From assembly GCA_017405375.1 (NCBI GenBank), contig JAFRAO010000013.1, positions 1 through 64,000 on the forward strand: a stretch of DNA of 64,000 bases. Direction: 5' to 3'. The translations under genes and the position numbers were made by a program. Positions 4,892 to 20,994 of this stretch are shown here, piece after piece. The notes under the pieces are model-generated. The model worked only from the letters and a program-made list of their open reading frames with translations. It was not told the origin of the DNA and did no database searches. Every line of letters begins with the position of its first letter. Position 1 is the stretch's first letter. This DNA comes from a bacterium. Lineage in GTDB: Bacteria; Cyanobacteriota; Vampirovibrionia; Gastranaerophilales; Gastranaerophilaceae.

Positions 4892-4920
4892 TTGCAAAAA
4901 ATATCGAAATATGGTACAAT
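4892..4920 (+). promoter_or_regulatory. Promoter for nrdDG
   Basis: TTGCAA at 4892-4897 and TACAAT at 4915-4920 are separated by exactly 17 bases, a good sigma70-type pair. Initiation about 7 bases downstream would start the RNA at the first helix of the riboswitch. The lysC promoter in this window also uses TTGCAA as its -35 box. Confidence 0.7.
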
Positions 4921-4924
4921 TAGC

Positions 4925-5029
4925 TTGATTATTCAAGGAAAGTCAGGTGGAAATCCTGCGCTGGTCCGCAGCCGTTATAGTCGGAATGCTTGATTAATCT
5001 GGTATTACTGCGTGACTGGGGGAAAAATC
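4925..5029 (+). promoter_or_regulatory. Cobalamin-type riboswitch (compact form) in the nrdDG leader
   Basis: The core matches the B12-riboswitch pattern: AAGTCAGGTGGAAATCCTGC followed by GCTGGTCCGCAGCCGT. Nested helices can be drawn: GATTA 4927-4931 with TAATC 4995-4999, TCAAG 4933-4937 with CTTGA 4989-4993, CAGG 4944-4947 with CCTG 4955-4958, and TGCG 4957-4960 with CGCA 4967-4970 (the last two share bases and would compete). The loop TGGTC (4962-4966) can pair, with two G-U pairs, to GACTG at 5014-5018, which abuts the GGGGG ribosome-binding site of nrdD. Ligand binding would then block translation. The known family logic is repression of B12-independent isozymes when B12 is present. It is much shorter than the classic ~200-nt form, so the subtype is uncertain. 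Confidence 0.75.
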
Positions 5030-7159
5030 ATGGAAAAAATTATCACAAGGGATGGAAAAATTGTAGAATTTAATTCTGCAAAAATCACAAATGCTATTGA
5101 AAAAGCATCTAGTGCAACACATGAAATTGATAGAAAAGCTGCTTTGCAACTTACAAGAAATGTTATGAATATTATAAATAACTTTGTAAGAGAGAAGCAA
5201 TCAAATTTGAAAGCTCCTACAATAGAAGAAATTCAGGATATTGTAGAGCAAGTTTTGTTGCAATCCGAATATAAACAAACTGCAAAAGCCTTTATTTTGT
5301 ATCGTGAACAACACAATAAAATGAGAGATTTTGCAAATCAGGCTTCAACTGACATGGTTGATGATTACTTAAAACAGCTTGATTGGCAAGTTAATGAAAA
5401 TTCAAACATGGGCTACTCTATTCAAGGTTTAAACAACTACATAGCCTCAAATATAAGCAAAAATTATTGGTTAAATAAAATTTATTCGGCAGAAATTAAA
5501 AACGCACATCAAAATGGTGATATTCATATTCACGATTTGAATATAATTTCAGCATACTGCGTTGGTTGGGATTTAAAAGATTTATTAATGGAAGGTTTCA
5601 AAGGTGTTACAGGTAAAATTGAATCCGCACCGCCGAAACATTTCAGAACAGCTTTAGGACAAATGGTAAACTTCTTATACACAATGCAAGGAGAAAGTGC
5701 AGGAGCTCAAGCATTCTCTAACTTTGATACGCTTCTTGCTCCGTTTGTAAGATATGATAATTTGAATTATGAACAGGTAAAACAAGCCTTGCAAGAATTC
5801 GTATTCAATATGAATGTTCCGACTCGTGTCGGTTTCCAAACTCCATTTTCTAACGTAACTATGGATTTAACTGTTCCTAGTTACTACAAAGACCAATGTG
5901 TAATTATTGGCGGGGAAATGAAAGAAGAAACTTATGGTCAATTCCAAGCTGAAATGGATATGATTAACAAAGCATTCTTTGAAATTATGATGCAGGGTGA
6001 TAATTCAGGCAGAGTATTCACTTTCCCAATTCCGACATACAACATCACAAAAGATTTTAATTGGGATAATGAAAACCTTGAAGGTTTATGGGAAATGAGT
6101 GCAAAATATGGTATTCCATATTTCTCTAACTTTATTAATTCAGATATGAATCCTGAAGATGCACGTTCTATGTGTTGCAGACTTAGAATTGACAATAGAG
6201 AATTAGAATACAGAGGCGGTGGATTGTTCGGCTCTAACCCATTGACAGGTTCAATCGGTGTAGTTACAGTAAATCTTCCAAAAATTGCGTACCTTGCAAG
6301 CAGTAAAGAAGAATTCTTTGATTTATTAGCAAAACGTATGGATTTGGCTAAAAATTCTCTTGAAATTAAACGTAAAATGCTTGAAAGATTGACTGATGCA
6401 AGCCTTTATCCATATACAAAATTCTATTTAAGAGATATTAAATCAAGATTTGGAGTATATTGGAAAAACCACTTCTCTACAATCGGTTTAATCGGTATGA
6501 ACGAAGCATGCCTAAATCTTTTAAATACTGATATAGGTTCAGAAGAAGGTCGTAACTTTGCTCTTGAAGTTATGGATTATATGAGAAACCGTATCGTTCA
6601 ATATCAAGAAGAAACAGGTAATAACTATAACTTGGAAGCAACTCCTGCAGAAGGTACAAGCTACCGTCTTGCAAAATTGGATAAAGAAAATATGCCAAAC
6701 ATCAGATGTGCAAACGATGGTGAAGAATGTTGCAGTAGTGAATATTACTACACTAACTCAACACAACTTCCTGTAAATTATACTGATGATATTTTTGAAG
6801 TTCTTGATCATCAAGACGAAATCCAAACAAAATACACTGGCGGAACAGTTGTACACATCTTTGCAGGTGAGCGAATTCATGATACAAAGGTTATGAAAAA
6901 TTTGGTTAAAAAGATTTGTGAAAACTACAGATTGCCATATTTTACATTCTCTCCGACATTTTCAATATGTCCAAATCATGGATATATAAATGGAGAACAC
7001 GAAACTTGTCCTGATTGCGGATATTCTTGTGAAGTATATTCAAGAGTAGTTGGATACATAAGACCTGTTGACCAATGGAACAGAGGTAAAAAAGTAGAAT
7101 TCGCTAACAGAAAAACATTCAAAATTAACGAGGAAAAATTAGAATGCGTTTCTGTATAA
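5030..7159 (+). CDS. nrdD: Anaerobic (class III) ribonucleoside-triphosphate reductase
   Basis: 709 residues from the ATG at 5030. It reduces ribonucleoside triphosphates to deoxy forms with a glycyl radical under anoxia. An ATP-cone fills residues ~1-95 (ITRDGKIVEFNSAKI). The catalytic barrel follows. The C-terminus has a Zn-type site (SICPNHGY...CPDCGYSC) and the glycyl-radical loop RVVGYIRPV, with the radical Gly near residue 675. An in-frame GTG at 5012 would start 6 codons earlier, but it lies inside the riboswitch. The ATG has GGGGG 8-10 bases upstream and an N-terminus that fits the family, so I chose it. nrdG overlaps its 3' end by 16 bases. Confidence 0.95.
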   Translation: MEKIITRDGKIVEFNSAKITNAIEKASSATHEIDRKAALQLTRNVMNIINNFVREKQSNLKAPTIEEIQDIVEQVLLQSEYKQTAKAFILYREQHNKMRDFANQASTDMVDDYLKQLDWQVNENSNMGYSIQGLNNYIASNISKNYWLNKIYSAEIKNAHQNGDIHIHDLNIISAYCVGWDLKDLLMEGFKGVTGKIESAPPKHFRTALGQMVNFLYTMQGESAGAQAFSNFDTLLAPFVRYDNLNYEQVKQALQEFVFNMNVPTRVGFQTPFSNVTMDLTVPSYYKDQCVIIGGEMKEETYGQFQAEMDMINKAFFEIMMQGDNSGRVFTFPIPTYNITKDFNWDNENLEGLWEMSAKYGIPYFSNFINSDMNPEDARSMCCRLRIDNRELEYRGGGLFGSNPLTGSIGVVTVNLPKIAYLASSKEEFFDLLAKRMDLAKNSLEIKRKMLERLTDASLYPYTKFYLRDIKSRFGVYWKNHFSTIGLIGMNEACLNLLNTDIGSEEGRNFALEVMDYMRNRIVQYQEETGNNYNLEATPAEGTSYRLAKLDKENMPNIRCANDGEECCSSEYYYTNSTQLPVNYTDDIFEVLDHQDEIQTKYTGGTVVHIFAGERIHDTKVMKNLVKKICENYRLPYFTFSPTFSICPNHGYINGEHETCPDCGYSCEVYSRVVGYIRPVDQWNRGKKVEFANRKTFKINEEKLECVSV

Positions 7160-13935: not shown

Positions 13936-14086
13936 TCTAAACTCTCCTTTGAAACAATAATGTAAAAATTTATATAAAATTAAAATTGATTAATCGAATA
14001 CATTAAGAATTATTTTATAAAATTTAAAATTTGATTTGATATTTTAAATTTTTTTTGCTATATTATAAGAGTAAAACGTAATACAT

Positions 14087-14166
14087 GCCGATGTGATGCT
14101 CAAGGTAGCCGAGTTAGAATAACGAGGACTACCGAGTCTGATTAGACCAATTCAATCACAGAGGCA
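14087..14166 (+). ncRNA. Putative structured RNA, unit 1 (tRNA-sized)
   Basis: The 80-nt core can fold as GCC/GGC, a symmetric GA/GA internal loop, then TGTGAT/ATCACA closing a junction. The first inner arm is GGTAG-CC-(GA)-GTTA, loop GAA, TAAC-(GA)-GG-A-CTACC. The second is GTCT, loop GATT, AGAC. Tandem GA/GA loops therefore occur twice, and both ends mimic a tRNA acceptor (starts GCC, ends GGCA). It lacks a T-arm consensus and a normal anticodon arm, so it is not a regular tRNA. The RNA is hypothetical. The strand is chosen from the tRNA downstream. Confidence 0.5.
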
Positions 14167-14207
14167 AAGCAATAAAAACTTTGACAATTAAATAAAACAT
14201 GATACAT

Positions 14208-14287
14208 GCCGATGTGATGCCCAAGGTAGCCGAGTTAGAATAACGAGGACTACCGAGTCTGATTAGACCAATTCAATCACAGAGGCA
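14208..14287 (+). ncRNA. Putative structured RNA, unit 2
   Basis: The core is identical to unit 1 except C at the position equivalent to 14100, and it keeps every pairing listed for unit 1. It is followed by a 41-nt spacer containing ACTTTGATAATTAAATAAAA. Confidence 0.5.
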
Positions 14288-14328
14288 AAACGATAAAAAC
14301 TTTGATAATTAAATAAAACGTAATACAT

Positions 14329-14408
14329 GCCGATGTGATGCCCAAGGTAGCCGAGTTAGAATAACGAGGACTACCGAGTCTGATTAGACCAATTCAATCA
14401 CAGAGGCA
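14329..14408 (+). ncRNA. Putative structured RNA, unit 3
   Basis: The core is identical to unit 2. Its spacer leads into the tRNA-Leu gene, so a transcript starting upstream of unit 1 would carry three units and the tRNA as one precursor, with a processing site expected before each GCCGATG. Confidence 0.5.
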
Positions 14409-14449
14409 AAACAATAAAAACTTTGATAATTAAATAAAACGTGATACAT

Positions 14450-14533
14450 GCCGATGTGATGGAATTGGTAGACGTGCTAGACTCAAAATCTTGTGTAGGA
14501 AACTACGTGCCGGTTCGACCCCGGCCATCGGCA
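14450..14533 (+). tRNA. tRNA-Leu (anticodon CAA)
   Basis: 84 nt. The acceptor GCCGATG at 14450 pairs with CATCGGC, with discriminator A at 14533. There is a D-arm with TTGGTAGA, an anticodon loop ACTCAAAATC giving CAA (decodes UUG), a long variable arm (TGTAGGAAACTACG) typical of tRNA-Leu, and a T-arm CCGGTTCGACCCCGG. No CCA is encoded. Its first 17 nt are shared with the tandem units upstream. A terminator follows. Confidence 0.95.
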
Positions 14534-14543
14534 AATTAATAAC

Positions 14544-14578
14544 AAAACGAGAGATGAATTAAATCTCTCGTTTTATTT
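14544..14578 (+). terminator. Terminator after tRNA-Leu
   Basis: AAAACGAGAGAT (14544-14555) pairs with ATCTCTCGTTTT (14563-14574), a perfect 12-bp stem with a 7-nt loop ending in a T-rich tail (TTTTATTTT). Confidence 0.9.
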
Positions 14579-20427: not shown

Positions 20428-20994
20428 ATGACAGAATCATTAGACAATTTATTTAAAAACGGTACTGAAAAAATGGAAAAGGTGTTAAATCAATTACATA
20501 GAGATTTTACAACCGTAAGAACAGGACGTGCAAATCCTGCTATGTTAGACAAAGTTATGGTTGATTATTACGGTGCACCAACCCCGCTAAAACAAATGGC
20601 TCAAATAACAGTACAAGAAGGTACAACTCTTGTAATTGCACCTTTTGATAAATCTGTTTTAAAAGAAATAGAAAAATCTATTATAAAGGCTGAATTAGGT
20701 GTTGCGCCAAACAATGACGGTGTTTCTATCAGATTAAACTTTCCGCCTTTAACAGAAGAAAAAAGAAAAGAAATTACAAAAGATGTTAAAAAATTCGGCG
20801 AAGATGCAAAAGTAGGTATAAGGAATGTTCGTCGCGATTTGACTGATGAATTAAAGAAAATTGAAAAATCAGAAAACTTACCTGAGGATATGGTAAAAGA
20901 TAACCAAGATAAAATTCAAAAATTAACAGATAAATATACTGGAATTATAGACAAAGAAGTTACATCTAAAGAAAAAGAGGTTATGACTGTATAA
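20428..20994 (+). CDS. frr: Ribosome recycling factor
   Basis: 188 residues, usual length. It splits post-termination ribosomes with EF-G. The hallmarks are FTTVRTGRANPAMLDKVMVDYYG near 30 and the C-terminal helix bundle (RNVRRDLTDELKKIEKS). GAAAGAGG precedes the ATG. Its stop shares one base with the cdsA start. Confidence 0.97.
   Translation: MTESLDNLFKNGTEKMEKVLNQLHRDFTTVRTGRANPAMLDKVMVDYYGAPTPLKQMAQITVQEGTTLVIAPFDKSVLKEIEKSIIKAELGVAPNNDGVSIRLNFPPLTEEKRKEITKDVKKFGEDAKVGIRNVRRDLTDELKKIEKSENLPEDMVKDNQDKIQKLTDKYTGIIDKEVTSKEKEVMTV

Follow-up and report, generated by a model that had tools for sequence, protein, structure and literature searches.

Three tandem 121-bp units precede the tRNA-Leu(CAA) gene in the window, the 64,000-nucleotide stretch of a Gastranaerophilaceae contig that was analysed here. 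The array appears to be the Leu-CAA case of a wider, apparently undescribed family of tRNA-capping hairpin repeats that is specific to Gastranaerophilales. It is most likely a strand-symmetric, DNA-level process that generates and spreads these units, adding them outside an intact master tRNA; we place this explanation first and hold it with about even confidence.

Organization of the tRNA-Leu(CAA) locus

The sequence-only reading had described three 121-bp units with the tRNA in phase as a fourth, and repeat analysis bore this out. TRF reported a 121-bp period across 14072-14461, with 96% matches and without indels, and the GCC that opens each unit (14087, 14208 and 14329) and the tRNA (14450) recurs at a spacing of exactly 121 (Table 1). 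As also described, the 80-nt cores end in GGCA and differ at a single base (at 14100, unit 1 has T where the other two have C), with more variation in the spacers between them. Each core starts like tRNA-Leu(CAA); the shared start, given in that reading as 17 nt, is however 12 nt long, the additional matching bases being accounted for by the leader 5' of the tRNA, which the units have in common with it. Past position 12, likeness between core and D-arm is patchy only (GGTAG.CG.G.TAGA).

Table 1. Features of the tRNA-Leu(CAA) locus (window positions)
Feature	Position	Strand	Remarks
Promoter-like site TTGATA-17-TATATT, TG-extended, of the tRNA-Leu(CAA) transcription unit	14036..14064	+	10/12 matches; upstream of whole array
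Unit 1 core, 80 nt	14087..14166	+	Parts: tRNA nt 1-12 copy, P2, P3, antisense, closing GGCA
Unit 1: tRNA nt 1-12 copy	14087-14098	+	
Unit 1: arm P2	14104-14133	+	
Unit 1: arm P3	14136-14147	+	
Unit 1: antisense of tRNA nt 6-20	14146-14160	+	
Spacer 1 with tRNA leader copy, boxA-like TTGACAATTAAATA	14167..14207	+	boxA by resemblance only
Unit 2 core	14208..14287	+	
Spacer 2 with leader copy	14288..14328	+	
Unit 3 core	14329..14408	+	Identical to unit 2 core
Spacer 3 / leader immediately 5' of tRNA	14409..14449	+	
tRNA-Leu(CAA), intact, fourth period of the array	14450..14533	+	ARAGORN; Rfam RF00005 48.2 bits
Intrinsic terminator of the tRNA unit	14544..14574	+	2 terminator-like sites, one per hairpin strand; 0.2 expected

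This tRNA is the sole Leu-CAA among the 27 tRNAs of the genome. A promoter-like site and a terminator enclose it together with the array, in agreement with the earlier proposal that the units lie within the tRNA transcription unit. The promoter-like match is weak taken alone, because six such sites were found versus 4.1 expected; the promoter and leader of the locus align with those of unit-free genus mates. In four genus mates that share this promoter and leader, the tRNA stands at the position occupied here by unit 1; the array is therefore an insertion between leader and tRNA. Identification of the leader motif as boxA was not upheld and is a resemblance only, since the strict pattern gave four hits in this genome versus two for the reversed control. 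Reading the units as leader peptides was likewise rejected, the short frames being inconsistent and, by eye, patternless. Elsewhere in the window, an AdoCbl-II (cobalamin) riboswitch lies at 4918-4999, ahead of ORF 5012-7159.

The core folds as had been proposed, with a GA/GA loop in the outer stem, a second GA/GA loop in arm 1 and a short second arm (-22.6 kcal/mol, z -3.6; 0-1 of 200 shuffles equally stable), and upstream units have a mean z of about -2.6 versus shuffled sequence. GA/GA loops were also seen in some units at other tRNAs, for example L212 (AACC-GA-AGC..GCT-GA-GGTT). As a general signature, tandem GA/GA was nevertheless rejected, occurring in 12 of 50 units versus 8.4 in shuffles, which is not significant. 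ARAGORN and RF00005 detected no cloverleaf in the array units and found only the gene at 14450. The array had no match in Rfam, riboswitch and T-box aptamers included; a permissive scan returned only a yeast snoRNA (E 0.46). No exact match to the core was found outside this genome among 99 relatives, genome contigs, viral contigs, phages and plasmids.

Units at other tRNAs and in related genomes

Homologous arrangements, which had been predicted upstream of tRNAs in relatives, were found there and at further tRNAs of this genome. Upstream units follow a common plan of tRNA nt 1-11/14, a variable hairpin, an antisense copy of the D-arm (in most types) and a leader copy. In this genome they occur at 5 of the 27 tRNAs (Leu-CAA, Leu-TAA, Lys-CTT, Thr-CGT and Arg-CCT), and downstream copies of the 3' end occur at three (Met-CAT, Gln-TTG and Leu-GAG). 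Related genomes have units at Leu, Pro, Lys, Met, Thr, Arg, Phe, Val and Ile tRNAs, those at Ile and Pro retaining parts of the D-arm. A leucine-specific role is hence not sustained: a leucine-charging sensor or an RNase P decoy is argued against because the design is common to many isotypes and is mirrored at 3' ends, beyond terminators.

The strict Leu-CAA design pattern was present in 29 of 288 family genomes, from eight genera (reversed control, 0), and in the genome collection all 20 hits with a tRNA within 300 nt downstream preceded tRNA-Leu(CAA). Degenerate-pattern scans gave many chance matches outside Gastranaerophilales, and only those then followed by tRNA-Leu(CAA) were kept. An exact copy of nt 1-11 lay upstream in 43 of 108 tRNA contexts, which were partly chosen for hits, versus 6 of 2160 other-isotype controls. 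Unbiased whole-genome tRNA sets had units at 8 of 27 and 1 of 43 tRNAs in the same family, 2 of 43 in another family of the order and 0 of 39 in another family of the class.

Close relatives differ in whether they have units, and a single genus can include both empty and occupied sites. Of 15 genomes of genus g36 sampled by tRNA, 12 had units directly, two had them on separate contigs and one had none. In one genus mate (L040/L449; G004 contig 12, about 20530-20664), tRNA-Leu(CAA) is broken, its nt 1-48 being joined to a downstream-type hairpin unit and 3' end, and ARAGORN found no tRNA there. Some contigs end within arrays, as might be expected of an assembly artefact; the same design nevertheless recurs in many independently assembled genomes, with copies that differ in sequence, and uninterrupted contigs span arrays, which leaves that explanation a negligible probability.

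A shared hairpin module and mirror-image downstream units

Units at different tRNAs are built around a conserved module, CTCTGCCGAG-hairpin-CGAGAGG. Of 60 genomes sampled from the same family, 38 had it; none of the 39 other genomes from the order and class did (control, 0). The form ACTCTGCCGAG-hairpin-CGAGAGG is common to upstream units of Lys, Leu (Leu-CAG), Pro, Met and Val, and its reverse complement, with a copy of the tRNA 3' end after it, makes up downstream units of Leu-CAA, Phe and Met. Module loci lay within 400 nt of a tRNA in 21 of 30 cases, where about 2% would be expected. Module hits in viral contigs served only as background for the test of tRNA copies; none of the six tRNAs on those contigs had a copy. 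Alongside downstream-type units at Leu-CAA and Gln-TTG there is another hairpin module, GCGCGAGYGAGCNGAGGC ... GCCGTTAARCGCGAG (L006, L107, L202, L316-L317).

Module copies also occur elsewhere. One genome (G052) has 34, many away from tRNAs, and its dispersed copies (L316-L326) are flanked by another repeat, GTCCGAGAAAG...CTTTTGAGTGGC. Tandem units with the module lie at non-tRNA sites in L329 and L332, the latter about 180 nt downstream of the bacterial large SRP RNA gene. In L223 (G042), a copy directly precedes a large serine recombinase-like gene, near a DNA-methylase-like gene, in surroundings that by eye resemble a mobile element; its position beside the recombinase may be a chance association.

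The compensatory changes sought in the stems were present in family hairpins: 31 cells of the module hairpin were altered on both sides, versus 8.0 in shuffles and 0-4 in slid pairings. Together with the better-than-chance fold and the arrangements in relatives, this covariation confirms that recent duplication alone is insufficient. Neutral decay of ordinary tandem tRNA duplications would account for tandem units in register that carry tRNA ends and leader, for the faint D-arm similarity in the array here and for the D-arm parts in the Ile and Pro units. It would not be expected to yield antisense arms, a module common to different tRNAs, mirrored downstream units or this excess of double changes; the shared module and antisense arms largely refute it, and we regard it as very unlikely.

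Downstream units are the mirror image of upstream ones, placed beyond the terminator and on the opposite strand. Judged from sequence, units always run from the outside towards the tRNA body, on whichever strand this requires. This strand-symmetric layout speaks for a DNA-level process rather than for a dedicated RNA regulator.

The antisense arm and a predicted tRNA trap

At its end the core has ~15 nt, ACCAATTC-A-ATCACA, that form a near reverse complement of tRNA nt 6-20, a feature that the sequence-only reading had missed. Leu-CAA units elsewhere combine tRNA nt 1-12/13, a variable hairpin, antisense of nt 6-20 and a leader copy, with unrelated middles. Their 5' ends track the acceptor variants of their own genome's tRNA (GATG/GGTG/GTTG/CAAG), and the antisense arm varies with the G or A at tRNA position 13, which the unit's own 5' arm lacks. 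When the last unit and the tRNA were folded together, two mutually exclusive states resulted. In the state favoured by the prediction, tRNA nt 6-20 are bound by the antisense arm while the acceptor copy of the unit pairs with the tRNA 3' end; in the transcript, the antisense arm would trap the D-arm of the tRNA.

These properties raise the possibility of a cis-acting RNA switch, in which the antisense strand has a choice of partners: the nt 1-12 copy of its own unit, which leaves the tRNA to fold normally, or, over 8 nt more, tRNA nt 6-20, in which case the acceptor copy takes the tRNA 3' end and the D-arm is trapped, so that the state of the unit sets tRNA yield. The predicted trap probability is at least 0.9 at all Leu-CAA loci, with the acceptor stem re-formed with the unit copy. 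Duplex energy is -29.7 kcal/mol for a unit with its own tRNA, compared with -18.8 for its own arm and -14.5 for other isotypes. In g36, where units have been inherited through at least 12 species, the D-loop complement is identical in 12 species, versus differences of 0.16 in the linker and 0.38 in the spacer, and the array here lies downstream of the promoter. The Pro and Val units, on the other hand, have no usable antisense strand (predicted trap probability at most 0.17, and at most 0.03 for Pro), no aptamer is common to the hairpin modules, units are absent from many close relatives, and downstream arrays cannot be used in this way because they are off the transcript, past the terminator and on the other strand. 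On balance, we consider such a switch possible, though rather improbable. We regard as improbable a lineage-specific cis-antisense system in which co-transcribed mimics of tRNA ends would capture the D-arm of the tRNA that follows, use their own 5' end to rebuild the acceptor stem, and control or expand tRNAs of many isotypes.

Origin of the units

The DNA-level explanation is ranked above the RNA switch because one process acting at both tRNA ends explains both sets of units. Read from sequence, each unit consists of a copy of the adjacent tRNA end and its flank, a hairpin module and, in most types, an antisense copy of the neighbouring tRNA arm; on the 5' side the copied part is the leader and nt 1-12, and on the 3' side the 3' end and the terminator. 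Units might be added by template switching or unequal copying at a tRNA cruciform, or by a recombinase acting on single-stranded hairpins. The master tRNA, being under selection, may keep correcting the direct and antisense copies, and such correction would account for the conservation of the arms. Upstream units would be co-transcribed with the tRNA from its promoter, presumably to be removed at 5' maturation; they may lower tRNA yield, the antisense arm being predicted to pair with the D-arm.

Counted in favour of a DNA-level origin were the mirror arrays, the occurrence of one module at many tRNAs, the dispersed non-tRNA copies, the patchy presence, the tRNA-matched unit ends and the proximity of loci to tRNAs. 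Against it stand the lack of a recombinase or other enzyme tied to the units, the better-than-shuffled fold of upstream units, and the invariance of the antisense arm in g36 while linker and spacer change, which selection at the RNA level would also fit. Covariation of the hairpins is no proof of RNA function, because template switching creates and maintains hairpins with compensatory changes (PMC8794818). The units resemble template-switch hairpins in these compensatory changes and in a probable DNA-level hairpin origin, but such events alone do not give a recurring conserved module.

Site-specific, cassette-like integration is a related alternative, in which a tyrosine recombinase or HUH-type enzyme reads single-stranded hairpins and uses the tRNA end as its attachment site. 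GCGNAGC mini-hairpins, which are very stable in single-stranded DNA, are present, exact direct repeats of tRNA nt 1-12 stand at every unit border, flanks are conserved while hairpin ends vary, and copies are dispersed. A fixed single recombination site is nonetheless insufficient for local leader and terminator copies and tRNA-matched antisense arms, and no enzyme was identified, a scan of the ten neighbouring proteins having given no recombinase; we think this alternative improbable. The units share with integron attC sites and tRNA-targeting integrative elements a variable-tip hairpin, conserved paired ends and direct repeats of the tRNA end, but no integrase was seen among the neighbours scanned, no cargo gene is carried, and the paired ends change with each tRNA. 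No attC R' box (GTTRRRY) was read in the units.

Comparison with known systems and significance

In E. coli tyrT (rtT RNA, RF00391), the tandem repeats come after the tRNA and contain its 3' end. Like them, the present units are tandem repeats of ~100-200 bp beside a tRNA gene, co-transcribed and copying one tRNA end; unlike them, they place copies of the 5' end ahead of the tRNA, include antisense arms and hairpin modules, and occur at many tRNAs. Downstream repeats with the tRNA 3' end, the tyrT layout, are absent from the window array and present in other family members, and RF00391 had no match in the window or six related loci. REP/BIME, RPE and other small palindromic repeats are also short, dispersed, lineage-restricted intergenic hairpin modules, whereas the module here is built into tRNA-end copies and concentrated at tRNAs. 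The 3'ETS-leuZ sponge RNA, which derives from a tRNA precursor spacer (PMC6191717), offers a parallel as a structured spacer that is possibly an RNA of its own; it differs in being single copy, on the 3' side and without a tRNA-end copy, and in targeting sRNAs.

Repeats that copy both ends of tRNA genes and carry antisense arms, and that occur at many tRNAs within a single bacterial lineage, had no prior description in the literature and catalogues searched. If the units act as RNA, they would represent a new way of gating tRNA production. If they are products of a DNA process, tRNA genes would be seeds of repeat growth, with unit number as its natural read-out.
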